Source of the DNA: Cyanobacteriota bacterium | GTDB lineage: Bacteria; Cyanobacteriota; Vampirovibrionia; LMEP-6097 | DNA: 60,637 bases | Direction of reading: 5' to 3' | NCBI GenBank assembly: GCA_027618255.1 | Contig: JAQCFG010000003.1 | Coordinates: forward strand, 1-60,637 | Part shown: positions 1,772 through 53,338 of the stretch, in pieces | Position numbering within the stretch: position 1 is the first letter of the stretch | Layout of the letters: the number at the start of each line of letters is the position of its first letter | Made by a program: the position numbers and the translations under genes | The notes under the pieces: generated by a model | Told to the model about the DNA's origin: nothing | The model's database searches: none | The model's input: only the letters and a program-made list of their open reading frames with translations

Positions 1772-3296
1772 GCAATTTGCTTAAATAGTTTTTCCAAACT
1801 TGATACTGAGCATCTAGGTTAGGTCCTGGCTCAAAAACCTTGTCTGCCTTAAGCTCTAGTTCAATCTCACCAGTCATCTTGGCAACTCCAAGAGCTGTCA
1901 TTTCGGTTTCTGTATATCTTTGAATGGGGATTTGCAAGAGATCAGCTTGAAACTGCATGAGAGTATCATTGAGACTAGCACCACCATCTACATTGAGCTG
2001 GGTGATTGACTTGCGCAGCTCTGGGTCAAGAGCTTCAAAAATATCCCTGACTCTATAAGCGATAGATTCAATGGCGGCTCTAGCGATATGGGCTTTGTTG
2101 CTGCCGCGAGTAATTCCAAAAATAGTGCCTCTGGCATCTCCCTTCCAGAAAGGTGCACCTAGACCAGCTAGTGCTGGAATTAAATAAACGCCACCATTGT
2201 CTGAGACTTCATTAGCTAGTGCTTCGATATCTGCTGATTTTTCGATGAATTGCAGTTCGTCTCGGAGCCACTGGACAATAGAGCCGCCAATAAAAATACT
2301 GCCTTCAAGCGCAAAGGCTTGAGCTGTTTCTGTTTTGTAAGCTGCACTTTTGAGTAAGCCGTCATTATTGGTTGCTAGTGAGAATGACATGGAGTCGCGT
2401 TCGTTACCAATGCGAGATTTGCTTTGAGCAGTGTCTCCCATTTTTGCTAGCCCCTTCCTGTAGGGAATCATCACAAAAGTCCCTGTACCATAAGTGCATT
2501 TGGCTTGGTTGTCATAGGCATAGAGCGCAGCTTGTTGGTCTCCTAGAACGGCTTTGATTGGCAGCTCTTGATCAAGCAAGTCTTGAAACAATGGGCTTGA
2601 ATTAAAATTGCCATTAGAGTCAATGACATCTGGAAGCATTAATTTATCTATCTTGAGCGTTTTGAGAATTTCTTCATCCCATTTGTTTTCGTTAATATCA
2701 TAGAGCATGGTGCGGGATGCATTGCTTGGTTCTGTGAGGTGGGCTCTGCCCAAAGTTAAATTCCATAGCAACCAAGTGTCTATAGTTCCAAACAAGAGGG
2801 GACAGCTTTGTCCAGCTTCTGCGTTAGTTTGACGATTATTTAAAATCCATTCTAATTTAGTCGCAGAAAAATAAGCATCTGGAATCAACCCTGTCTTGGC
2901 TTTGATATAATCGGTAAAATCAATATTGCCGATTTTGGTTTTGCTAAGTTCTTTGCATCTGTCACTAGTCCTGCGACATTGCCATACAATAGCCTTGTGG
3001 ACAGGTTTCCCTGAGCGTGGGTCCCAGACCACGGTCGTTTCTCTTTGATTAGTGATTGCTATAGATTTGATAGAATCTTTGTTGATTTTACAAGCGTCTA
3101 GGTTTTGTTTAATTAACTCACGGCAGCAAGCTAAAGTCTTGTCCCAAATTTCTGAAGCGTCATGTTCTACCCAACCAGGTTGAGGATAGTACTGTGTGAT
3201 TTCTTTTTGGACAATGTCAAGGATTTTACCTTGGGCGTCAATTAATAATGCCCGAGTGCTTGTCGTCCCCTCATCAATAGTTAACACATAATCCAT
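1767..3296 (-). CDS. glpK: Glycerol kinase
   Basis: FGGY-family kinase that phosphorylates glycerol to glycerol-3-phosphate in the cytoplasm. The phosphate-binding motif DEGTTSTR (residues 8-15), NQRET (83-87), the FGTIDTWLLWNL block and the C-terminal GLGAPFW segment are all present. At 509 aa it is near family length. Its ATG shares one base with the glpD stop (TAATG), so the two genes are translationally coupled. Residues about 285-309 form an extra segment compared with known GlpK (between YRKGLAK and NNDGLL). Its DNA (about 2370-2444) has inverted ends (GCTAGcaaaAATG versus CATTctcacTAGC), so it may be another in-frame palindromic insertion. Confidence 0.95.
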   Translation of the reverse strand: MDYVLTIDEGTTSTRALLIDAQGKILDIVQKEITQYYPQPGWVEHDASEIWDKTLACCRELIKQNLDACKINKDSIKSIAITNQRETTVVWDPRSGKPVHKAIVWQCRRTSDRCKELSKTKIGNIDFTDYIKAKTGLIPDAYFSATKLEWILNNRQTNAEAGQSCPLLFGTIDTWLLWNLTLGRAHLTEPSNASRTMLYDINENKWDEEILKTLKIDKLMLPDVIDSNGNFNSSPLFQDLLDQELPIKAVLGDQQAALYAYDNQAKCTYGTGTFVMIPYRKGLAKMGDTAQSKSRIGNERDSMSFSLATNNDGLLKSAAYKTETAQAFALEGSIFIGGSIVQWLRDELQFIEKSADIEALANEVSDNGGVYLIPALAGLGAPFWKGDARGTIFGITRGSNKAHIARAAIESIAYRVRDIFEALDPELRKSITQLNVDGGASLNDTLMQFQADLLQIPIQRYTETEMTALGVAKMTGEIELELKADKVFEPGPNLDAQYQVWKNYLSKLL

Positions 3297-4978
3297 TAAT
3301 AACCCTTGGTCAGAAGTTCTTTAGTCACATTGTCTCTTGTTCTTGCCATCAATTCAAATTCTTGACTAAGATAGTGGCTGATAGTTTGAATCACTGACTT
3401 CTCTATCTTATCGCTACTTAAGCCAATTGTTAAGCGTCTTTTGAGAATATCTTCAAGGGTATAGGCTGATTCGTTGCGAATTGCATAAACTATTTGCGCT
3501 TCAATATCTTCATAGTCTGGTGAGATTTTGTTTTTGAGTAGAGGATTTTTGAGGCAAAGATCAAGTAGCTCAGGCGTGTTAGTGCCGTAGAGCATTAACA
3601 AATGCAAGATAGTATGAGCTTCCATCTCATACCTTGAACTATAATCAGCTAAAATATTTTGTACATAGTCATAAAAACTTAAGTTCGGTGGATATTTGCA
3701 GCCAGTTGTTTTACTTTGGTCTGTGTGACACTTGTTTTTGGTTAGTTTGTCTACTACTTCTTTTGCAAGATTGCGGAAGGTTGTGATTTTGCCTCCTACT
3801 ACTGAGTAGTAATTTGAGATATGATCTTTTTTACCATGGTTGATTATTGAATGTTTGCGACTAACCTTGCCTTCTTTGCCTGTTTTGCTTAGGGGCAGCG
3901 GTCTCACTCCACAAAAGCTATTGGTGATTGATTTTGAGCTGAGATTTGCATTGGGAAATAAGTCATTAACTTCGTTGAGAAGATATTGGACTTCTTCTGC
4001 TGAGATTTTTAGATTGTCAAGATTGTCATGTGCTCCAAGAAAAATATCGGTGGTGCCAATTAAATAAAGATCTTCATTCATACCGATTTTATAGGGAAGA
4101 ATAAAGAAGGGTCTACCATCTGCTTTGGCTTCATTATAGATTCCAAATTTGGCAGGTGCTCCAGCAAAGGATTTGACTAGAATATGTGATCCCTTGGTGC
4201 CGCCAATGCGTTTAGCTGGACTGTGACTAAGTCTAAAACCTTCATTGGTTTTGAGCCATTCATGATCTTCGTCTAGCCATGGTCCGGTCATATTGATAAT
4301 GTTTTTGCCATAGACGGTGTATGGTTTTTTGCCATTGAGCATATCTTTGAATTTAATCGAGCTTGCTTGATAATTATCATTGACTTTGCTGCACTGAATA
4401 TCCGTTAGCTGACAGTGATTGAGGCAGATAGCTCCTAGCTCTTGAGCCGTTCTGATATTTTCAAGTACTAGTCTTTCCACAAATGGTACTTGCCCGTCAT
4501 GATAGAACACAGCACCCTTGAGGCCCTGTTGTTTGATATCAAGCTTGAGACTTGCCATTTGTTCTTTGCTGACAGTTTGGTAAGGTAGTAGACTTTTACC
4601 TGCAGAAAGTAAGTCATAAAACATCATGCCAAGTTTGAGTTTACTTAGGCTATATTTGCTTTTTTTGTAGGCTGGAACCAAAAGACCGATTGGGTTTACC
4701 AGATGAGGATAGTTTTGTAATAAAATTTCACGTTCCTGCAAGCTTTCATAAACCAAATTAAACTCAAGTTGTTCAAGATAGCGAAGACCACCATGAATTA
4801 AGCGAGTGGAATGAGCGCTACAACCAGAACCAAAATCATTCTTGTCGATTAACAGAGTTGTGAGCCCTCGCTCTGCTGCGTCACGGGCCGCACCAGCTCC
4901 ATTAATCCCCCCACCAATTATGATGAGATCAAAGAGTTGTGCTAAGTTGTATTGATCTAGCCGGTGTTCTATTCGCAT
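3296..4978 (-). CDS. glpD: Glycerol-3-phosphate dehydrogenase (FAD)
   Basis: Oxidises glycerol-3-phosphate to dihydroxyacetone phosphate and passes electrons to membrane quinone. The N-terminal FAD fold is clear (LIIIGGGINGAGAARDAAER, GGGxxG at residues 22-29), followed by STRLIHGGLRYLEQ, the substrate-domain motif FILPY, the conserved SNYYSVVGGKITTFR block and the C-terminal helical domain. Length 560 aa is normal. The start ATG has a weak AGG upstream (GCAGGTAAAAC). It is the first gene of glpD-glpK-rarA and makes glycerol a likely carbon or phospholipid intermediate source. It diverges from the module island to its right. Confidence 0.95.
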   Translation of the reverse strand: MRIEHRLDQYNLAQLFDLIIIGGGINGAGAARDAAERGLTTLLIDKNDFGSGCSAHSTRLIHGGLRYLEQLEFNLVYESLQEREILLQNYPHLVNPIGLLVPAYKKSKYSLSKLKLGMMFYDLLSAGKSLLPYQTVSKEQMASLKLDIKQQGLKGAVFYHDGQVPFVERLVLENIRTAQELGAICLNHCQLTDIQCSKVNDNYQASSIKFKDMLNGKKPYTVYGKNIINMTGPWLDEDHEWLKTNEGFRLSHSPAKRIGGTKGSHILVKSFAGAPAKFGIYNEAKADGRPFFILPYKIGMNEDLYLIGTTDIFLGAHDNLDNLKISAEEVQYLLNEVNDLFPNANLSSKSITNSFCGVRPLPLSKTGKEGKVSRKHSIINHGKKDHISNYYSVVGGKITTFRNLAKEVVDKLTKNKCHTDQSKTTGCKYPPNLSFYDYVQNILADYSSRYEMEAHTILHLLMLYGTNTPELLDLCLKNPLLKNKISPDYEDIEAQIVYAIRNESAYTLEDILKRRLTIGLSSDKIEKSVIQTISHYLSQEFELMARTRDNVTKELLTKGY

Positions 4979-5051
4979 GTTTTACCTGCATTACTGTTAT
5001 GCCCATTGGTTTTTCAGGTAATTAGAGGATATTTTTGCTAGTATTATTTGT

Positions 5052-5219
5052 ATGACAAGTGTTGGACAAGGTAATACGCCGCACGAATTTTAATCAAAAG
5101 TAGCTTCTCAATATTCTAAAGCAGCAGCAGGGATGTTTATGAGGGATAAAGTAAGAACTTTGCTAATCGATATTATGAACAGATCTGGTATTAGACAGGT
5201 TGATGAAGAAATTACTTAG
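5052..5219 (+). pseudogene. Decayed copy of the small 'MTS' protein gene (module 1)
   Basis: An ATG at 5052 opens MTSVGQGNTPHEF and then meets TAA at 5091-5093. The same frame continues through SKVASQYSKAAAG and ends in RDKVRTLLIDIMNRSGIRQ... before a TAG at 5217. Both ends match the module 2 gene at 6650-7104 (MTSIPEQSNTP... and RDKVRSFLINLMDRTAIRP...), but about 100 middle codons are missing. The gene is therefore a relic with an internal deletion plus an in-frame stop. Its end overlaps the stop of the facing ATPase gene by 8 bases, exactly as in module 2. Confidence 0.75.
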
Positions 5220-6561
5220 GATGCTTTTTTGAAACAATCTCTGTAAGTCTTCCTGCAAGATACAAAGGTATCTTATAAACATTAGTTCTGTGATCGATAT
5301 TAAGGTTTTGTCCACTGACAATAGTATTGATTTTATTGTGATATTGCTCTCTAAATAAATATATACTTTTGGCTTTGGTTACTTGTCCAGCTTTGACTTC
5401 TATTGGAGTAATTTCTCCGTCAAGATCAAGCACAAACTCAAGTTCTTTTTGGGCTTCTTGCCATGAGAAAATAGGCTTATTGTTACAGAGGCTTTGGACA
5501 AGTGCTTGCGCGACATAGTTCTCGGCGAAAAATCCTTTGTAAGTTCCATAATCATAGTCATAAATTGTTTTGGGGGCAAGATCAATCATTGCTCCTAATA
5601 GACCAATATCAAAAACAAATAATTTAAACGAGCTTGCTTTGAGATTTGATTTAAGGGGAAGAGCGATATGGTCAAGGATTGGGATTTTGATAATGAGGCC
5701 GGCTGCTTCAAGCCAGTCTATGCTAGAAATTAATCTTGAATATCTATTTTTTTCGGGAATGGCTGACTTGAATTTGAATTTATTGGCGTTAGCTGTTTGT
5801 GATTGAGAGAGCTGCTCACCGATATTATTCCAGAGTCTTTGTAAGTGGACAGCGTTTTCTTTACCTGCATGTTTTGCCATGTCACCCAAGTAATCAGTAA
5901 TGAGATCTTGTTGTTTGTATCTCACTTGCTCAAACGCTGTTGCTAATTGATCTTGGTGTTTTATAAACTCAAGCACGACTTCTGGCAAGCCACCAGTGAT
6001 AAAGTAAAGCTTGACTAAGTTCCAGAGTTTCTGGTGTAGTTCAGGATAGATTTGTTCTTGGCTTATTCCTTCTTCTAATGCTTCAAGCAGAATGTTTTTA
6101 TTTAAGGCTTGCAAGAACTCAGTGAAATTCATAGGGTACATTTCAATGTGATCTACCTTACCAACAGGGTATGAAAGCTCGTTAAGCTTGACTCCAAGCA
6201 AGGAACCAGCGGAGATCACCGCTTGATTGGGCTTTTGCTCACAAAAATACTTGAGGCTGGTAAGAGCGCGAGGGCATTCTTGTACTTCATCAAAAATAAT
6301 TAGATCTTGCTCAGAGATATTATGCTCAAGACTAATTGAAAGTCTTTGGATTATAGTTTGAGGATTTATATTGTCATCAAAAATTGTCCTAAGTTCTTTT
6401 TGTTCTTCAAAGTTGATGTAAGTATAGTGAGCAAAATTATTCTTGGCGAAATCTATCAGGCTATAGGTTTTACCAATTTGCCTGGCCCCTTGAAGAATTA
6501 AGGGCTTGCGTTTGGCTTTTTGCTTCCATTCCTGCAATTTGGCTAGGATGTCACGTTTCAT
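5212..6561 (-). CDS. DUF4143-type AAA+ ATPase, module 1
   Basis: Predicted ATPase of the COG1373/DUF4143 group, whose biological role is not established. From the ATG at 6561: Walker A GARQIGKT (about residues 25-32), Walker B LIIFDEVQ, the SAGSLLG sensor-like block and MYPMNFTEFL typical of the ATPase core. A C-terminal restriction-endonuclease-like domain carries ELEFVLDLDGEITPIEVKAG, with the spacing of a PD-(D/E)XK core (D...ExK). I prefer the ATG at 6561 to the upstream in-frame TTG (6579), because the TTG lies inside a 52-bp palindrome. Intact and probably functional. It faces the dead small gene at 5052-5219 and diverges from the module 2 small gene. Confidence 0.85.
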   Translation of the reverse strand: MKRDILAKLQEWKQKAKRKPLILQGARQIGKTYSLIDFAKNNFAHYTYINFEEQKELRTIFDDNINPQTIIQRLSISLEHNISEQDLIIFDEVQECPRALTSLKYFCEQKPNQAVISAGSLLGVKLNELSYPVGKVDHIEMYPMNFTEFLQALNKNILLEALEEGISQEQIYPELHQKLWNLVKLYFITGGLPEVVLEFIKHQDQLATAFEQVRYKQQDLITDYLGDMAKHAGKENAVHLQRLWNNIGEQLSQSQTANANKFKFKSAIPEKNRYSRLISSIDWLEAAGLIIKIPILDHIALPLKSNLKASSFKLFVFDIGLLGAMIDLAPKTIYDYDYGTYKGFFAENYVAQALVQSLCNNKPIFSWQEAQKELEFVLDLDGEITPIEVKAGQVTKAKSIYLFREQYHNKINTIVSGQNLNIDHRTNVYKIPLYLAGRLTEIVSKKHPK

Positions 6562-6568
6562 GCGTATA

Positions 6569-6620
6569 TTATGCCACAAATGGCATTATTTACGCATGAA
6601 TAATGACATTTGTGGCATAA
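6569..6620. promoter_or_regulatory. 52-bp near-perfect palindrome, probable operator of module 1 ATPase and module 2 small gene
   Basis: Two 22-base arms starting TTATGCCACAAATG and ending CATTTGTGGCATAA, with one mismatch and an 8-base centre. Each half contains its own smaller palindrome (ATGCCACAAATGGCAT and ATGACATTTGTGGCAT), with centres 32 bp apart (three helical turns). It lies between the divergent starts at 6561 and 6650, so one bound dimer pair could control both. Confidence 0.7.
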
Positions 6621-6649
6621 TTCTAAATTTGCTATTATTGTTCTTTATT

Positions 6650-7104
6650 ATGACAAGTATTCCTGAACAAAGTAATACCCCCCCCCCATTAATCAGTTAG
6701 AGTTAGCGCGGCAAGTTCGAAAACAGGCTATCGATTCAGCATTTGCAAAACAAATTGATTTGCCTCTGACCTTTGCTGCTGTTGCGCCAGGTATGGATAG
6801 AAGAACCTCTGACGCATGGACAGAAATTATGGTGCATAGTGCTTTAGATTGCTCTCAAGCAGCTTGTGCTGCAAACTGGACAAAGCTTAGTTTAGTAGAC
6901 TTCATGAAAAAGTTCTCGAGTTTTGTTAAGGGTATGACACCAACAGAAGAACTAAAAGAATTAAAATCTTACCTTGCTGACGTTTATCGAAACTCACGCT
7001 TAGCTGCTAAAACAACTCTTAATGTGCGTGATAAAGTAAGATCTTTTTTGATTAATCTTATGGATAGAACTGCTATTAGACCAATAGATGAAGACATCAA
7101 CTAA
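6650..7104 (+). CDS. Small 'MTS' protein of module 2, switched out of frame at a C10 tract
   Basis: The ATG at 6650 begins MTSIPEQSNTPPP and runs into TAG at 6698-6700. A second open frame runs through 7104 (...INQLELARQVRKQAID...DKVRSFLINLMDRTAIRP...). The frame change falls at ten consecutive Cs (6678-6687); eight or eleven Cs would join the two parts into one protein of about 150 aa. As written the gene is off. The N-terminus matches copies at 5052 and 8510, and the C-terminus matches the copy at 5052. Ser/Ala-rich helices dominate, with no signal peptide; function unknown. Its stop overlaps the facing ATPase by 8 bases. The alternative is a true frameshift or an assembly error at the homopolymer. 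Confidence 0.7.
6678..6687 (+). repeat. C10 homopolymer tract
   Basis: Ten consecutive Cs, ten codons into the small gene, in an otherwise AT-rich region. Slippage here would switch the gene on or off. Confidence 0.9.
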
Positions 7105-8263
7105 AAAGCTTATCCAGAAAATCTCTCCAAGGATAAACAGTAATCTCTCCAAGTTCTTTGGCGCGAGCTGCTCTTGAGACACAGATTAATTCTGAATCTT
7201 GATTAATTTCTTGAAAGGAAAATAAACCACGCAAATCTGCTTTGCTTGGGTTTTCACTTGATTTGATTTCAATGGCGAGGGTGTGACCGTCAGGCTTTTC
7301 TATAATTAGATCGACTTCTGTATCATTGGAACTGCGATAAAAACTAAGATCCCAGTTTTTTTTGTAATAACGATTGAGTTTGATTATTTCATTGATAATA
7401 AAATGTTCAAAAACAACACCATAAGTATATGTTGCTGGAATAATGTCATCGCTAAGGTTGTTGAGTAAGGCGTTACGCACGCCATTGTCAAACAAATAGA
7501 ATTTGGGATGTTTGACGAGGCGCTTGCGAGTAGACTTATTGTAGGGTTTTAAGAAGCTGCCAATAAGCGTGTCTTCTAGCACCTGAAAATATTCTTTAAT
7601 GCTTTGATTACTGGTAGCTGCTTCCCTGGCGATATTTGAGTAATTAAGTAAGTTACCACTTTCACTAGCTGCAAGTCTCAAGAAGCGTGTGAAAGCTCCC
7701 ATGTTGCGGACGATTGCTTCAGCTTTGATTTCTTCTGTTAGGTAAGTCTCAACATATGATTGAAGCATTTCTTGAGCTGCTTCATCATCGTTAAGGTAAA
7801 TAGCAGGAAGAGTTCCAAAGCGCAAGGCGCGCCCAAGGTCAAAATCCTCACCAAGTTCACTATAACTAAGTGGGTAGAGGCGACGAGTCCAGGCTCTACC
7901 ACCAAGCATGTTAGCTTGCCCACGTTTGAGTTTGCGAGCTGAAGAGCCGCTAAGTACAAAATAAATCTGCCTATCCAAGTTTTCAATTAAGTTATGAACT
8001 TCATTAAGCAAGGCTGGGATTCTTTGTACTTCATCAATAATTACATGGCTAATTTGAGGATCAAGTTGACGAACTTCCTCGGCTAGTAGTTCTGGGTGAG
8101 CAACTAACCTGGTATATTCTTTTTCAAGCAATAGGTTGTAGTATGCAGAACTTTCTTTGCAAAAACTATGTTTGATTAATGTACTTTTACCGACTTGTCT
8201 TGGCCCAAAGAGAAAAAAATGAGCTTGTTGAGGTAATTCAAGTAGGCGTTTTTTAGAAGCCAT
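7097..8263 (-). CDS. DUF4143-type AAA+ ATPase, module 2
   Basis: Same broad family as the ATPase at 5212-6561 but a different subgroup. Walker A is GPRQVGKST near the N-terminus, Walker B is VIIDEVQRIP, then SGSSARKLKRGQANMLGGRA. The C-terminus has TEVDLIIEKPDGHTLAIEIK, again a PD-(D/E)XK-like D...ExK arrangement. The chosen ATG (8263) gives MASKKRLLEL and lies next to a -10 TATAAT 6 bases upstream and within an inverted repeat; an upstream in-frame start at 8338 would read through that repeat. The gene ends 8 bases inside the module 2 small gene. Appears intact (389 aa). Confidence 0.85.
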   Translation of the reverse strand: MASKKRLLELPQQAHFFLFGPRQVGKSTLIKHSFCKESSAYYNLLLEKEYTRLVAHPELLAEEVRQLDPQISHVIIDEVQRIPALLNEVHNLIENLDRQIYFVLSGSSARKLKRGQANMLGGRAWTRRLYPLSYSELGEDFDLGRALRFGTLPAIYLNDDEAAQEMLQSYVETYLTEEIKAEAIVRNMGAFTRFLRLAASESGNLLNYSNIAREAATSNQSIKEYFQVLEDTLIGSFLKPYNKSTRKRLVKHPKFYLFDNGVRNALLNNLSDDIIPATYTYGVVFEHFIINEIIKLNRYYKKNWDLSFYRSSNDTEVDLIIEKPDGHTLAIEIKSSENPSKADLRGLFSFQEINQDSELICVSRAARAKELGEITVYPWRDFLDKLFS

Positions 8264-8324
8264 ACTATAATTATACCATGTATTTTTATGGTTTAACATA
8301 GAATTGCATGGTGTTATTATAGTA
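8263..8324. promoter_or_regulatory. Inverted repeat at the start codon of the module 2 ATPase, with -10 TATAAT
   Basis: Arms 8263-8280 (TACTATAATTATACCATG) and 8307-8324 (CATGGTGTTATTATAGTA) pair at 15 of 18 positions across a 26-base spacer. The minus-strand -10 TATAAT (8270-8275) is inside the proximal arm, so binding there would block the promoter. Confidence 0.6.
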
Positions 8325-8332
8325 GAATAAAT

Positions 8333-8443
8333 AGACATCCTGCAAAACTCTGTTTTGCTAGAGATGTCGACACAAAAAAGGTCGGAACCATGCGGAGCAT
8401 GTGTTCCGCCAGTGGAGATAATAGTGACTTACGCAGGAAGTCT
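8333..8443 (+). repeat. 111-bp protein-coding palindromic element, copy 2 (intergenic)
   Basis: Reads RHPAKLCFARDVDTKKVGTM...CSAS...LRRKS with no stop across exactly 37 codons, in the same frame as the copies inside rarA and rnhB, and is followed at once by ATT TAA. It lies between the module 2 ATPase promoter and the module 3 small gene and is not part of a recognisable gene here. Confidence 0.85.
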
Positions 8444-8509
8444 ATTTAAGTTATAAAAAATGACAGTATGAGCTGTTTACTTCACGTGTTTGCTATTATT
8501 CTAGATATT

Positions 8510-8944
8510 ATGACAAGTATTTCTAGACAAGACAATACTCCCCACCCTGATGGTAATTTCGGAATTAATACTGGTCAAAAAACTAGGAGAGAATTAACAG
8601 AGCTTCAAGTGCGTTTGCAGAGGAGTGGTGATGAACTGGAGGCGAAGAAAGTTGGAGAGATATTAGCAATAATTCCAGACGATGTAGTAATTTCTTCACC
8701 AAGCAAAAGTCCTAATGAGCTTTATCATTATTTTTTTCAAACTTATTCTCATACGATGAAAAATATTGCGACAGGAGTATTTTCTAGAATGCGCGCGTTA
8801 GAGAAACTTGGAGAGGGTGATGAGCAAATTAATAAAGATAGTTTGAAAGAAATTTATTCAGACTTGAAGAAATATTTTGATACTTTATGGGCTTATACTT
8901 CTAATTTTGCTGGGCATGTTTGTGATTCCATTCCGCTAGAGTAA
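8510..8944 (+). CDS. Small 'MTS' protein of module 3 (144 aa)
   Basis: Begins MTSISRQDNTPHPDG, matching the first 11-13 residues of the copies at 5052 and 6650, and shares the upstream TTTGCTATTATT string. The body is unrelated to the module 2 copy at sight: charged helices (KTRRELTELQVRLQR, NKDSLKEIYSDLKK) and an aromatic segment (LYHYFFQTYS). I chose ATG 8510 rather than the in-frame ATG at 8468 because the homology to its paralogues begins there. No signal peptide or known domain. It faces the decayed ATPase at 8967-9501, keeping the convergent order of the other modules. Function unknown. Confidence 0.75.
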   Translation: MTSISRQDNTPHPDGNFGINTGQKTRRELTELQVRLQRSGDELEAKKVGEILAIIPDDVVISSPSKSPNELYHYFFQTYSHTMKNIATGVFSRMRALEKLGEGDEQINKDSLKEIYSDLKKYFDTLWAYTSNFAGHVCDSIPLE

Positions 8945-8966
8945 GCTCATGAACAGTAATTTATGG

Positions 8967-9501
8967 CTAGTTAAATAGTTTACCCTGCCACATTTGTTCT
9001 ATAAAACTTTGATAGTTAATAATCTCAATCCCATCTTCTGTGATTCTATTGGTATCAATTTAGATCAAAGTTGTGCTTAAGTTCATGCATGCATAAACCA
9101 TAAAGCTCGTATCTTAGAGCTCTTCCTCCAAGTAAATTGGCTTGTCCTCTTTTTAATTTGCGTGCAGAGGAACCACAGAGAATAAAATTGAGATCTAAAT
9201 TTTCAATTAGCCAGTGAATCTCATCAAGGATTACAGGAGTTTTTTGTACTTCATCTAATATGATGGGTTGTGATTTATCAAGCAGTGATTTATCAAGTTG
9301 ATATTGTAGTTCTTCTCTTAGCAGGTGTGGATTTTCAAGGTATTTGATATAGGTATTTGTTTGCAGAAAATCTATATAAATTGAATTAAGATATTGTTTT
9401 TTTAGTAGAGAGCTTTTGCCAGTCTGTCTTGGCCCCCATAAGAAAAGACTTTTGGATGGATTTTGGGGTAAATTAAGGGCCCTGTTAAACTGGATATCCA
9501 T
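8967..9501 (-). pseudogene. DUF4143-type AAA+ ATPase with large internal deletion (module 3)
   Basis: The first 148 codons are a good ATPase N-terminus: Walker A GPRQTGKSS, Walker B IILDEVQKTP, then LCGSSARKLKRGQANLLGGRA. It stops right after HNFDLN at 9055. Downstream, in another frame, 8967-9053 reads IDTNRITEDGIEIINYQSF...GKLFN and stop. That matches the very C-terminus of this family (compare VSRAARAKELGEITVYPWRDF in module 2). So roughly 200 or more middle codons, including the nuclease-like domain, have been lost. The start ATG at 9501 lies inside a palindrome. Confidence 0.75.
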
Positions 9502-9539
9502 GAATATCTAGGGTGATACCACGGATATTCATGAATATC
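9493..9539. promoter_or_regulatory. Paired 16-bp palindromes at the start of the module 3 ATPase relic
   Basis: GATATTCATGAATATC (9524-9539) is a perfect palindrome. GATATCCATGAATATC (9493-9508) differs by one base and contains the start codon. Centres are 31 bp apart (three helical turns), like the paired sites at 6569-6620. Confidence 0.65.
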
Positions 9540-9551
9540 ACTAATTAGAGC

Positions 9552-11639
9552 TTAATTTCTAGTAAAAACTGGTATATTCTCTAGGCTCACGTCAAGAGTG
9601 ATCTTCTGACCACCTTGATATTGCTCAGCACTAAAATAATGAGTCCAAGTCACGCCCTTGCCTGGTAAATAAAACTCACGAGTCTTGGCGCCTGGTTCAT
9701 AAATTGGAGCCACAAAGAATTTATCACCAAAGATATATTCAAAGCTTTGATTATAGGTCTCTGCTTCATTTTGAAAATCATAGACAGTAGGTCTCATGAT
9801 TGGGATTCCTAGTGTGCTTGCTTTCACGCTTTCTTGTTCAAGATAGGGAATTAATTCGTTGCGCAATTGCATAAAGCGTTGGATGATTTTAAAATGCTCA
9901 GGGTGAGTAGCTTGATGTAAGTCGGGTTCAGTTGGAATATTTTTGTAGGAGTGAATACAAAAGCGCGGAGTGAAGATACCGTTTTGAATCCATCTTAGTA
10001 ACAGTTCACTATCTGGTGTTTCTCCCCAGAAACCACCAATATCACAGCCCGCGTGAATCAGCCCAGAGAGCCCCATTGAAGCTAAGATGGTGTTGTCGTA
10101 TTGTAGTGATTTCCAGCTAGAGTTATTATCGCCAGTCCAGGTCTGGGCGTATTTTTGAATGCCGGCGTAGCCGCTTCTAGACAAAATCCAAGGTCCCATC
10201 TCCCTATTCCCTATTCCCTTTGCCCATTCTTGGTAAGCTTCGTGCGCTAATCGAGACATGATGATTGACATCTCCATTTCATGACCCTGAGCTTGATGTG
10301 GCTCAAAAATCTCATATTCATTATTGTCATTCCAGATACCACAAATGCCGTTATCAAGAATTTGGCTTTTGAGTTTTTCTTTCCACCAAGTTTGAGTTTG
10401 AGTTTTGCGGAAATCCAAACTTGATCCGGGTCCACCCCAATAGTCAATTACTAGAGTTGAATTATCAGGTCTATTAATGAATAAATCAAGCTTGATTGCT
10501 TCCTGATAAAGTGGATGAGTCGTTAATAGTACTGGTTTAACATTGGCGCAAAGCTCGACACCAAGCTCTTTAGCTGCTTTGGCAAAGGCTTTAGGATCTG
10601 GGAATTTGTCCTTGTTCCAAATGAATTGTTGTCTTTGTCCATTGGAGTCTTGAATATAGCCGGAGCTAAGGTGAAAGGCTGAAGCTGGGATGTTTTTGTC
10701 TTTGAAGCGCTTGAAAGTATTTAGTAAATGCGTTGCAGCAGGGAGGTCCTGACGTCGGGTTTCACCCTCCTCAGGATGACGATTTTCTGTATACGACATC
10801 CCCGAAGCTAAATAACCAAAGGTGAAACTCGGTACAGGATTGGGTTTGCCGGTAAGTTCTAAATATCTAGAAACAATATCTTTTATTTGTGGACCATTGA
10901 TAAAGTAGTAGTTTAAATCGCCGCCTTCAGCTCCAAAGTAATAATATGGAGAGGGTTTGCGCTCACGACCAAAGTCAAAAAACTTAGGGTTGAAGTTGTC
11001 AAAAAATATTCCATGTGCTTTTTGGGTATCGGGATTTAATTCAATAAAAAACGGAATGTCTTTGTAAAGTGGATCTGTAAACTCTGAATCATAACCAAGC
11101 GCGTCTAGTGGTGCGTTGCGAAAACGTCTGCCCCAACGGTTGAGAGAGCCTGTCTTATCGCCAAGTCCATAAATATTGGGTGCGGTTTTGTATTGTTTGT
11201 AGCAGCGAATCTCTGTTTTATCATAATCAAGTTGACCTGACCAGAAGCCAAGCCCTGGTTCATCAGAGCTTAGTAAATCGCCAGCTTGATTAAAAATTTG
11301 CACTTGCAAAGGATCAGGATGGATTTTGACTACTAGTTTGCTTGTTTCAATAATTTGAATTCCGTCTTCGCTATCGCTACGACGCGACAAGTTGCTTCTG
11401 ATTTCTAGATCTTCAAAATTCTGAAACTCAAGATGAGTATTAGGATGATATAAATCAAAATCATCATTATTTGAATAATGAAACCTCACTATCTCTTCTG
11501 AGATAAAACAGATATGCAAAAATAATTCTTTGCCTGTGATGTGATTGAGTCTAAGTGTGTAGAGATTCTCTCCAGCTTCTTCTATACTTGAAAGAATCAA
11601 GCGATTTTTGAGTCCATATTGTGTATTTTCTGAGGGCAT
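9552..11639 (-). CDS. Glycoside hydrolase family 31 alpha-glucosidase-like enzyme
   Basis: GH31 enzymes cleave terminal alpha-linked sugars. The catalytic nucleophile motif is visible as GIWNDNNE (first D), and the acid/base region as TWTGDNNSSW, with GLSGLIHAGCDIGGFWG after it, in a 695-aa protein starting at ATG 11639. An upstream in-frame start at 11762 would overlap divergent kdsD and adds unrelated sequence, so I rejected it. No signal peptide, so probably cytoplasmic. Two short foreign-looking stretches interrupt it: RHPEEGETRRQDLP (DNA 10741-10783) between SYTE and the conserved LLNTFKR helix, and NLSRRSDSEDGI (11361-11396). Both match dispersed repeat families in this window. The specific substrate cannot be told. 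Confidence 0.88.
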   Translation of the reverse strand: MPSENTQYGLKNRLILSSIEEAGENLYTLRLNHITGKELFLHICFISEEIVRFHYSNNDDFDLYHPNTHLEFQNFEDLEIRSNLSRRSDSEDGIQIIETSKLVVKIHPDPLQVQIFNQAGDLLSSDEPGLGFWSGQLDYDKTEIRCYKQYKTAPNIYGLGDKTGSLNRWGRRFRNAPLDALGYDSEFTDPLYKDIPFFIELNPDTQKAHGIFFDNFNPKFFDFGRERKPSPYYYFGAEGGDLNYYFINGPQIKDIVSRYLELTGKPNPVPSFTFGYLASGMSYTENRHPEEGETRRQDLPAATHLLNTFKRFKDKNIPASAFHLSSGYIQDSNGQRQQFIWNKDKFPDPKAFAKAAKELGVELCANVKPVLLTTHPLYQEAIKLDLFINRPDNSTLVIDYWGGPGSSLDFRKTQTQTWWKEKLKSQILDNGICGIWNDNNEYEIFEPHQAQGHEMEMSIIMSRLAHEAYQEWAKGIGNREMGPWILSRSGYAGIQKYAQTWTGDNNSSWKSLQYDNTILASMGLSGLIHAGCDIGGFWGETPDSELLLRWIQNGIFTPRFCIHSYKNIPTEPDLHQATHPEHFKIIQRFMQLRNELIPYLEQESVKASTLGIPIMRPTVYDFQNEAETYNQSFEYIFGDKFFVAPIYEPGAKTREFYLPGKGVTWTHYFSAEQYQGGQKITLDVSLENIPVFTRN
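10741..10783 (-). repeat. In-frame repeat in the GH31 gene ('catcctgag' family)
   Basis: Reads CATCCTGAGGAGGGTG then CCCGACGTCAGGACC on the coding strand, with inverted CCTGA/TCAGG ends. It adds about 14 residues between family-conserved blocks. A related piece is at 60062-60089. Confidence 0.6.
11361..11396 (-). repeat. In-frame copy of the GACG-type repeat in the GH31 gene
   Basis: CTTCGCTATCGCTACGACGC followed by GACAAGTTGCT nearly matches 42041-42071 (TACGCTCCGCTACGACGC then GGCAAGTTGCT). Related units follow ftsZ and the gene at 57152. Confidence 0.65.
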
Positions 11640-11674
11640 TGAAGGCTTAGTGGTTATATTCCCATGTAATACGC

Positions 11675-11680
11675 TATAAT
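11675..11680 (+). promoter_or_regulatory. -10 element of kdsD (leaderless)
   Basis: TATAAT followed by 6 bases and the ATG at 11687. Confidence 0.5.
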
Positions 11681-11686
11681 TAGCAT

Positions 11687-12673
11687 ATGCACACAAGTAC
11701 AAATAATAAGATGAGCTCGATTGATATCGCCCGAGAAGTCTTTGAAATAGAGCTTGATTCAATTAATCAGGTTCTCGATTCTCTAGGTAGTGAGTTTGAG
11801 CAGGCTGTCGAAGAGGTGCTCAAAGTCAAAGGCAGAGTCGTTGTTACTGGAATGGGCAAGTCTGGTCATATCGGTGCCAAGATCGCTGCGACTTTGGCTA
11901 GTACCGGAACGCCATCGTTTTTTGTTCACCCTGCTGAAATGGGACACGGCGATCTTGGAATGCTTAAGACTGATGATTTGGTTTTGGCTCTTAGTTTTAG
12001 TGGTAACACAGAAGAGCTGCGTAAGGTTTTGCCAGCGATCAAAAAACGTAATTTGCCGTTGATTGCAATTACTGGTGGCAAAGATAGTTCACTAGCTAGT
12101 TTTGCAGATATCGTTTTGCATACACCAATCAGTAAAGAAGCTTGCCCGCTAGATTTAGCTCCTACTTCTTCAACTACGGTCGCGCTTGTTATGGGCGATG
12201 CACTGGCGGTAGCTTTGATGAAGCGTCGTGATTTTAAGAAAGAGGATTTTGCGCAGTCGCATCCACTTGGATCTCTAGGTAGAAGCTTTGTTCAGGTAGA
12301 ACAAATTATGCGCAAGGAAGCAATTCCCAGCGTAGAAGCTGATGCTGATATGAAAGCTATTTTACGTGAAATCAATAGCAAAAAATTTGGTTTTACAACT
12401 GTTGTTACACCAGCCAATAAAGTCATTGGAACTATTACTGATGGTGATTTGCGCAGGGCGCAAATTAATTATGGTGCTGATAGTTTTAACAAAAAAGCCA
12501 AAGACATTATGTGCTCTAGCCCTAAAATAATAAGTCCGGAGGCGCTGGCAATTACAGCTGCGGAGATTATGAAAGAATATAGAATTTCAAGTTTGGTGGT
12601 GGTCGACAACGATTCAAAAGCTCTAGGCGTCATTGATCTTAAGGATATGTTAGCTGAAGGCTTTGTTATATAG
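11687..12673 (+). CDS. kdsD: Arabinose-5-phosphate isomerase (KdsD/KpsF family)
   Basis: Converts ribulose-5-phosphate to arabinose-5-phosphate, the first step to KDO for lipopolysaccharide. The SIS sugar-isomerase domain covers about residues 40-180 (VVVTGMGKSGHIGAKIAATL, then SFSGNTEEL and the GSLGR motif). Two CBS domains follow (about 205-328). The length of 328 aa is normal. The start could be the ATG at 11687 or the one at 11711; I kept the first because TATAAT ends 6 bases before it. It diverges from the GH31 gene with only about 47 bases between starts. It implies an LPS-bearing outer membrane. Confidence 0.92.
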   Translation: MHTSTNNKMSSIDIAREVFEIELDSINQVLDSLGSEFEQAVEEVLKVKGRVVVTGMGKSGHIGAKIAATLASTGTPSFFVHPAEMGHGDLGMLKTDDLVLALSFSGNTEELRKVLPAIKKRNLPLIAITGGKDSSLASFADIVLHTPISKEACPLDLAPTSSTTVALVMGDALAVALMKRRDFKKEDFAQSHPLGSLGRSFVQVEQIMRKEAIPSVEADADMKAILREINSKKFGFTTVVTPANKVIGTITDGDLRRAQINYGADSFNKKAKDIMCSSPKIISPEALAITAAEIMKEYRISSLVVVDNDSKALGVIDLKDMLAEGFVI

Positions 12674-52184: not shown

Positions 52185-53338
52185 ATATTGCCCAGGAAAG
52201 TCTTACGATGTTCTTTGGTCAAGCCATGTTCTTGAATGGCTCGCATGTGTTTGCTGGTGCCGTAGCCGACATTAGTTTCCCAGATATACTGTGGCTGTGA
52301 GATTGCAAGTTCTCTCATATAATCATCACGCTTGTCTTTAGCAAGGTTGCTAGCTGCTGCAATCAGAGAACTCGTTGAGTCACCTTTGACTATGTTTTTT
52401 TGTCTGATGATGATCTCGTTTTGCTCGCGTTTAAGTTGTATGTGAGTTTGCTTGTAATCAAGCCCAAGTTCTAGGAAACTAAAATCTATGATTTTGCGTT
52501 TTTTAAAGATTTCTCTACTTAGTTCTGCTAGGTTTTGTATGGTCTTTGTGCCGTCAATTAATAAGAGAATCTCATCTGGGTAACGGTGATAGAGATCAAG
52601 GTGCTGCTGAACGATATTGATGAGGTTTTCTGTCATAGAGCGCCAGATAGCTTTGACAATACCGTATTTGTCGATATATTCGGCACTTTGCATATTAGTT
52701 GAATGAAACAGGTGTTGATCGGCACTGAAATAAGGTAGGTCGAGTAAAGCCTTGCAGAGTGCTTTACGTTTGGATTTGAGGACTTTTTTACTATCATCGA
52801 GCAGTAATAATGAACTAATTTCTTGGACATCTTGCAAGTCTGCTTCAATAGACCTTTTGCGAAAGTTCCCTTTGTCTTTACTAGCGGAACTAGTGCGCCG
52901 TACCGTTCCGACCTCTTTTGTGTCGACATCACTAGCAAAACGAGGTTTTGCAGGATGTCTAATACTGGTCTCGTTGATAATTGTTTCAGCGTAATATCTA
53001 TCTCTATCATTCAGTGAGATGAAATCACCACTCATTAATTGACTAGATCGTTTGACTTCAGTTAGTAGATCTTGTTTTTCGGCATAAAAACTAGAACAAG
53101 AATAAGCGCCGGTGCAAACAGGTCCAGCTACGCAGCCTCTGCCAACCTCATCAAAACCAATTATTAGAGTGCCTTCAGCGAGATCTAGATGGAGCTTCTC
53201 ATCAAAGCTAATTAACTTAGAAAAATTTTCGAGGTGTTTGTCAGAATAGAGTTGTTGATAATTCTTGCGGACTTTGGGCTTGGCGGAAGCAAATAATTTA
53301 TTACGTCGTTTTTTCTTTTTGGTTTTTGCCAGACTCAT
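52169..53338 (-). CDS. rnhB: Ribonuclease HII with N-terminal extension and in-frame repeat
   Basis: Removes ribonucleotides from DNA and RNA primers. Catalytic motifs are intact: GFDEVGRGCVAGPV (D and E), LLLDDSKK, LLIDGTK (D), VKGDSTSSLIAAASNLAKDK and YGTSKHM. It has 389 aa, whereas RNase HII is usually about 200. The excess is a basic N-terminal tail (KTKKKKRRNKLFASAKPKVR), longer loops, and residues 127-163 that are the translation of the 111-bp repeat, just before the DDSKK motif. The start overlaps the upstream gene by 38 bases, so they are probably co-transcribed. Confidence 0.93.
   Translation of the reverse strand: MSLAKTKKKKRRNKLFASAKPKVRKNYQQLYSDKHLENFSKLISFDEKLHLDLAEGTLIIGFDEVGRGCVAGPVCTGAYSCSSFYAEKQDLLTEVKRSSQLMSGDFISLNDRDRYYAETIINETSIRHPAKPRFASDVDTKEVGTVRRTSSASKDKGNFRKRSIEADLQDVQEISSLLLLDDSKKVLKSKRKALCKALLDLPYFSADQHLFHSTNMQSAEYIDKYGIVKAIWRSMTENLINIVQQHLDLYHRYPDEILLLIDGTKTIQNLAELSREIFKKRKIIDFSFLELGLDYKQTHIQLKREQNEIIIRQKNIVKGDSTSSLIAAASNLAKDKRDDYMRELAISQPQYIWETNVGYGTSKHMRAIQEHGLTKEHRKTFLGNINAGS
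52850..52960 (-). repeat. 111-bp protein-coding palindromic element, copy 3 (inside rnhB)
   Basis: Encodes RHPAKPRFASDVDTKEVGTV...TSSAS...FRKRS, 37 codons in the same frame as the copies at 548-658 and 8333-8443. The ends AGACATCCTGCAAAAC and AGACCTTTTGCGAAAG are imperfect complements when read inward. Confidence 0.92.

Follow-up and report, generated by a model that had tools for sequence, protein, structure and literature searches.

A small orphan gene with a putative poly-C switch beside exchangeable PDC-S01 ATPases at the glpD locus of a Cyanobacteriota bacterium

The window analysed here is a stretch of 60,637 nucleotides, contig C3 (JAQCFG010000003.1) of the 2-Mb genome G000 of a Cyanobacteriota bacterium; its nearest sampled relatives, G001 and G002, are Candidatus Melainabacteria metagenome-assembled genomes (MAGs) of the same genus. 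Between glpD (3296-4978, minus strand) and a GH31-type alpha-glucosidase gene (9552-11762, minus strand), both named from the sequences of their open reading frames (ORFs) and not from a family search, the window carries three modules. Each has a small gene on the plus strand, called S here, that converges with a DUF4143 ATPase gene on the minus strand (S1/A1 to S3/A3; Table 1). An original prediction, made from the letters alone, had described these modules by their MTS..NTP small genes and had read them as stages in the decay of a defence or toxin-antitoxin-like system. The arrangement itself was confirmed at the same positions. We consider it more likely, however, that the locus is a phase-variable orphan gene beside exchangeable PDC-S01 ATPases and not a row of decaying toxin-antitoxin copies.

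In the S copies an AT-rich -10 element is found some 12 bases ahead of the ATG, and the N-terminal sequence follows the pattern MTS[IV]..Q.NTP; the promoter is common to all three modules. S1 reads MTSVGQGNTPHEF and then stops at codon 14. About 100 codons are missing, in agreement with the predicted loss of the small gene from module 1, and the in-frame tail that remains is homologous to the last part of S in G001 (66% identity). S2 has an intact body of 138 codons, which is out of frame with the ATG. S3 is open, with an interrupted C tract; beyond the promoter and roughly 13 initial codons it has nothing in common with S2. The possibility that S3 is a diverged S2 was rejected, since profile comparison aligns the first 13 residues only; judged from this alignment, the S 5' module (promoter plus MTS..NTP) is joined to a different body in S3. 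MTS..NTP was also considered as a genome-wide signal and dismissed: only the five S copies carry it, and a sixth pattern match lies inside an unrelated gene. The S protein is probably helical, about 150 amino acids long and fast-evolving. A profile search against the PDB returned weak matches only, mostly to designed helical proteins.

All three ATPases match PDC-S01 models in PADLOC (A1, E 1e-134; A2, 4e-69; A3, 5e-16). The match spans residues 6-447 of 455 in A1 and 35-384 of 413 in A2 (model PDLC04789), and covers the AAA part only in A3. A1 and A2 both contain the AAA_14 and DUF4143 domains, whereas the middle of A3 is deleted, as predicted, and the AAA part and the last 26 residues survive. 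In the clade of A2 the Walker A GKS, the DE and an E-V-D...E-x-K motif are invariant; in the nuclease motif of A1 an E replaces the D (ELEF...EVK). A structure model of the ATPase with a moderate predicted local distance difference test (pLDDT) score of 64 matches RuvB, McrB and clamp loaders in the motor and Can2/Card1 overall, with low template modelling scores, and a search of solved structures by sequence gave no match. The PDC-S01 ATPase has an AAA+ motor and a PD-(D/E)XK nuclease domain, with a helical region in the middle. PDC-S01, an ATPase fused to a PD-(D/E)XK domain, is reported to be the fourth most common defence annotation in prokaryotes, and most PDCs still await experimental validation (PMC12988326).

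Table 1. Features of the S/ATPase locus (positions in the window; IR, inverted repeat)
Feature	Coordinates	Strand	Remarks
S1: -10 region and small-gene remnant	5037-5219 (-10 region 5037-5048; ATG 5052)	+	alpha lineage
A1: intact PDC-S01 ATPase (AAA_14 + DUF4143)	5212-6561	-	88.5% identity to the G001 S-locus ATPase
IR1: palindrome at A1 start	6568-6621 (arms 6568-6590 / 6599-6621)		arms co-vary with G001
S2: -10 region and small gene	6631-7104 (-10 region 6631-6639; ATG 6650)	+	beta lineage
C10 tract of S2, putative phase-variation switch	6678-6687	+	
A2: intact PDC-S01 ATPase, invariant EVD...EIK nuclease motif	7097-8263	-	
IR2: palindrome directly abutting the A2 start codon	8264-8323 (arms 8264-8280 / 8307-8323)		
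Dispersed repeat of about 117 bp, inserted between A2 and S3	8332-8447		
S3: -10 region and intact ORF	8492-8944 (ORF 8510-8944; ATG 8510)	+	S 5' module, unrelated orphan body
A3: PDC-S01 remnant, internal deletion	8967-9501 (AAA part 9055-9501; C-terminal piece 8967-9047)	-	
IR3: palindrome over A3 start	9493-9539 (arms 9493-9508 / 9524-9539)		

The pairing of S with an ATPase had been predicted to recur in other genomes. It does so in three of the three species that have S, where the 5' module is present in five copies and the locus is the same each time; chance pairing is excluded because S/ATPase recurs in two further species. In G001 and G002 the start of S is about 75 bp away from glpD, with a convergent DUF4143 gene at its other end. 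The recurrence is confined to one genus. Of 60 relatives, the other two species of the genus alone have S homologues, and a scan of GTDB species contigs detected them nowhere outside it. A profile search of 382 genomes of the class gave no S outside the genus, save three unconvincing matches at E 0.005-0.01, and viral contigs and plasmids yielded no S homologue. An S without an ATPase was seen in none of the class genomes, GTDB species contigs, viral contigs and plasmids.

Two lineages of S can be told apart, alpha (S1 and the G001 S) and beta (S2 and the G002 S, 47% identity); S2 and the G001 S are 37% identical. GlpD of G000, by comparison, is 96% identical to that of G001 and 76% identical to that of G002. 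Because S has diverged to 37-66% identity despite these values, the alpha and beta lineages appear to be older than the separation of the species. The ATPases paired with S are of at least two deep subtypes, the A1-type and the A2/A3-type; the A1-type is found with S in G000 and G001, the A3-type in G000 and G002. In a tree of 47 DUF4143 proteins the S-locus ATPases fall in separate groups: the partner of A1 is the G001 ATPase, the nearest protein to A2 comes from another genus (66%), and a single protein of the genome G006 is the closest to both the G002 ATPase (82%) and the A3 remnant (77%). S1 and A1 were inherited as a pair. The beta S sits with an A3-type ATPase in G002 and with A2 in G000, where S3 is found with A3; thus partners have been exchanged. 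The idea that the small gene and its promoter are swapped onto different ATPases holds in part; S3 carries only the 5' module.

After NTP, at the same codon in all three species, S contains a C tract. It has eight Cs in G002 (in frame), nine in G001 (out of frame) and ten in G000 (out of frame), and all three species agree on C8 or C11 as the ON length. The bodies 3' of the tract are open for 138-149 codons and have 35 invariant residues in common; those of S2 and of the G001 S keep the W, P and GMDR-type invariants. Differences between the bodies are highest at third codon positions (0.53-0.58, compared with 0.31-0.44 at second positions), and the third positions are AT-rich, as in coding DNA of an AT-rich genome. 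Tracts of at least eight Cs are rare, with only 4 in G000, 2 in G001 and 5 in G002. The S tract is the longest C tract in both G000 and G001, and the genomes of the genus that were checked have no further tract of at least nine Cs at the start of a long ORF. CCC accounts for 10% of proline codons, and CCC-CCC was found in 0 of 18 Pro-Pro pairs sampled.

The original prediction was right that ATG and body of S2 lie in different frames at C10, but took this for decay. The break fits switching better than decay, because the length of the homopolymer differs from species to species and the body remains intact; on this pattern it is probably a phase-variable switch. The gene shows what is expected of a contingency locus, namely a variable simple repeat near the 5' end of the ORF, an intact downstream frame and a consistent ON length. 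Tracts of such length suffice for switching elsewhere: the G8 tract of pglX varies and switches the Pgl phage defence at 1e-2 to 1e-4 (PMC4365076). Programmed ribosomal frameshifting at the tract was considered and is unlikely, since G000 and G001 would need opposite shifts. A separate locus, L091 (G006:C6 near 13500), has a C9 tract between an upstream frame of 56 codons and an open frame of 400 codons and is possibly another phase-variable gene in the family.

Alternatively, the whole array could be a graveyard: frameshifts would have turned S2 and the G001 S into pseudogenes, and the C tract would be a functionless hot spot of mutation. S1 and A3 are indeed clear remnants, two of the three full-length S genes are out of frame, and the tracts of S1 and S3 are interrupted. 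Yet the bodies of S2 and of the G001 S are free of stops over their whole 138-149 codons, keep their invariants and show third-position bias, the G002 S is wholly in frame, and a genome of 39.6% GC would hardly retain a long C tract without cause. We regard decay of this kind as quite unlikely. The least likely of the explanations considered here is that the true tract is C8 everywhere and that errors in sequencing or assembly produced the OFF frames. Homopolymers are prone to such errors, and both relatives are MAGs; however, G001 and G002 were assembled separately in different projects, each genome has a tract length of its own, and even then S would remain a real gene with a hypermutable tract.

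Whether S acts with the ATPase is a different matter, and a number of observations weigh against a partnership. There are 15 other DUF4143 genes in G000 that have no S, so the ATPase family does not need it. PDC-S01 genes at five loci (L105, L109, L120, L122 and L126) overlap the stops of unrelated convergent genes; these overlaps measure 4-12 bp and include a short-chain dehydrogenase/reductase gene, a sulfotransferase-like gene and the genes at L120 and L126. At the S locus the overlap had been given as exactly 8 bases, which is correct for module 1 (5212-5219), module 2 (7097-7104) and G002 but is not a rule, as it is 4 bp in G001 and S3/A3 are separated by a gap of 22 bp. Since PDC-S01 also abuts unrelated convergent genes, overlapping stops alone are no proof of partnership; part of the conserved layout is simply how PDC-S01 genes settle in genomes, and convergence with S may be a landing habit. 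Furthermore, the body of S3 is unrelated, no homologue of S was detected beyond the genus, and the structure model of S is poor (pLDDT 51). The tract lengths come from three genomes only, all metagenome-assembled or draft, with one consensus length each. Finally, neither a demonstrated defence activity nor a mechanism of PDC-S01 was found in the literature searched. That every DUF4143 gene has a convergent small partner was also considered and is false; most neighbours are ordinary genes or absent.

A possible interpretation, which we place short of an even chance, is that S belongs to the glpD locus as a phase-variable gene in its own right, that PDC-S01 genes are mobile single-gene cassettes inserted at the 3' ends of resident genes, and that the pairing is positional and not functional. 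Besides the overlaps with unrelated stops, this would account for a sulfotransferase-like gene whose 3' end is occupied by PDC-S01 in G001 and G002 (L109, L122) and empty in G000 (L161, G000:C2); the last codons of this host gene differ between occupied and empty sites. It would also agree with the 9-35 DUF4143 genes per genome in this family (a lower bound from one query) and with the A3-type C-terminus, GKLFN followed by the stop, which is identical in G000 and G002 whatever the end of S. It leaves unexplained, however, that S has multiplied along with the ATPases (three 5' modules for three ATPases in G000) and that S is never found without an ATPase. Because landing alone does not multiply S, we put partnership slightly ahead.

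Beyond the S locus, most genomes elsewhere in the phylum have no DUF4143 match at E 1e-15. Several DUF4143 genes each, some fragmentary, lie on G003:C62, G003:C71 and G007:C14, which suggests that genes cluster or turn over rapidly at these places. PDC-S01 relatives of A2 are also widespread among plasmids, with 322 PLSDB records, and at the sampled plasmid loci (L164-L179; Runella, Emticicia, Sphingobium, Dinoroseobacter and others) they are often found beside recombinases, integrases or partition genes. A search of IMG/VR for the A2 clade of PDC-S01 gave no confirmed match.

An imperfect palindrome precedes each of the three ATPases, with its near arm extending to the start codon or almost to it. 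An inverted-repeat score of at least 10 was obtained for 39% of 62 DUF4143 starts, compared with 3.4% of 149 other genes and 1.6% of dinucleotide shuffles (Mann-Whitney p 1.4e-11); in this test A1 is counted twice (window and L102), and the top-scoring match among the other genes has the same arms as the DUF4143 palindrome of its locus. The 15 plasmid PDC-S01 genes gave 27% against 3% (p 0.002 against neighbours), in a sample of Bacteroidota, Pseudomonadota, Chlamydiota and Deinococcota in which several Runella are not independent. Here too the near arm often ends at the start codon, with arms such as CCTTGCAA. The arm sequences track the ATPase subtype: both arms of IR1 carry the same C/T difference between G000 and G001, AATAATACCATG-like arms are common to A2 and L103, and the IR3 motif ATATTCATGAATAT is also present at L110, the G006 relative of A3. 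Several near arms contain a -10-like GGTATAAT. Further start palindromes of PDC-S01 genes, with the position conserved across phyla, are seen for example at L119, L032, L114, L103, L173 and L179. The simplest reading is that the palindrome is a putative operator for autoregulation of the ATPase; alternatively, some other factor may bind there, or the palindrome may act as a hairpin in the RNA.

The original prediction had proposed a test for proximity to defence islands. No obvious island was found around the locus, and the neighbours, as read from their ORFs, are glpK, glpD, the GH31-type glucosidase and KpsF-, RarA- and RuvB-like genes. An Rfam search at the locus gave no match. The dispersed repeat of about 117 bp, which is palindrome-rich and resembles a miniature inverted-repeat transposable element, has at least 44 copies in G000 and 41 in G001; further copies in the window lie at 549-660 and 52843-52961.

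Among known systems, the ATPases correspond to PDC-S01, a single-gene candidate of PADLOC, in that A1, A2 and A3 match its models and in the fusion of an AAA+ domain to PD-(D/E)XK (PMC12988326). What differs is the convergent, putatively phase-variable small gene and the gene-specific start palindrome, neither of which was found described in the literature searched. Like Pgl of Streptomyces coelicolor, the locus has a homopolymer of about eight within an ORF, which in Pgl switches a defence component (pglX), and the Pgl system also combines an ATPase with a partner that suppresses toxicity (PMC4365076). Unlike Pgl, there are only two genes here, with no methyltransferase, kinase, PglY or PglZ, S is not a PglX homologue, and a defence role is putative; in a PADLOC search covering these proteins only, S and the ATPases had no PglX or PglZ match.

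Similarity to a type II toxin-antitoxin system is restricted to a small gene beside a larger partner. The genes are convergent, with separate promoters and not in one operon, the proteins have about 150 and 410-450 amino acids, and they show no toxin or antitoxin homology; S had no match in Pfam, PADLOC or NCBIfam. Of the proposed defence or toxin-antitoxin system, the defence side has some support, since the ATPases belong to a candidate phage-defence family, and nothing shows toxin-antitoxin behaviour. In the poly-G/C contingency loci of Campylobacter, Neisseria and Helicobacter, the tract lies in or near the 5' end of the ORF, its length varies between strains and one of the three frames is ON. 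S resembles them in the position of the tract, in its variable length and in having one ON frame. It differs in that there is one locus per genome instead of dozens, that the variation is known between species, and that the bacteria are environmental Melainabacteria and not host-adapted. Examples of such loci are given in PMC6321876 and PMC2823697. A report of phase variation in this lineage was not found in the literature searched.

Taken together, our favoured, though unproven, reading is that S is a switchable partner of the ATPase. The locus would be a small array of a genus-specific two-gene unit, in which slipped-strand copying at the poly-C around the 11th codon puts translation of S on (C8 or C11) or off, making S a contingency gene; we infer that such switching takes place in living cells, at some rate. 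The ATPase would be transcribed from a promoter buried in its own palindrome, a putative operator that it may bind in autoregulation. S would be the partner of the ATPase-nuclease as an effector, an activator or a target-side factor, or may restrain it. Most cells might hold S off and a minority on, which would spare cost as proposed by analogy with PglX in Pgl phage defence, so that part of the population would use a costly or risky activity against incoming DNA. PDC-S01 genes come and go at the site, and copies of S have in this way been re-paired with different ATPases. For this explanation as a whole, with S as the phase-variable, switchable partner of the PDC-S01 ATPase in a two-gene unit, we estimate a probability of roughly 45%. 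A wider version, in which PDC-S01 is generally a self-regulating mobile ATPase-nuclease that reads its own palindrome at its start codon and has here gained a phase-variable partner, making immunity or its cost switchable cell by cell, is fairly unlikely.

The locus offers two handles on PDC-S01. One is the gene-specific start palindrome, a candidate binding site that keeps its position across phyla and co-varies with the subtype. The other is a putative natural ON/OFF switch in an adjacent candidate partner gene. Should S modulate the ATPase, the locus would be an example of a contingency locus linked to defence in bacteria other than the host-adapted ones in which such loci are usually found.

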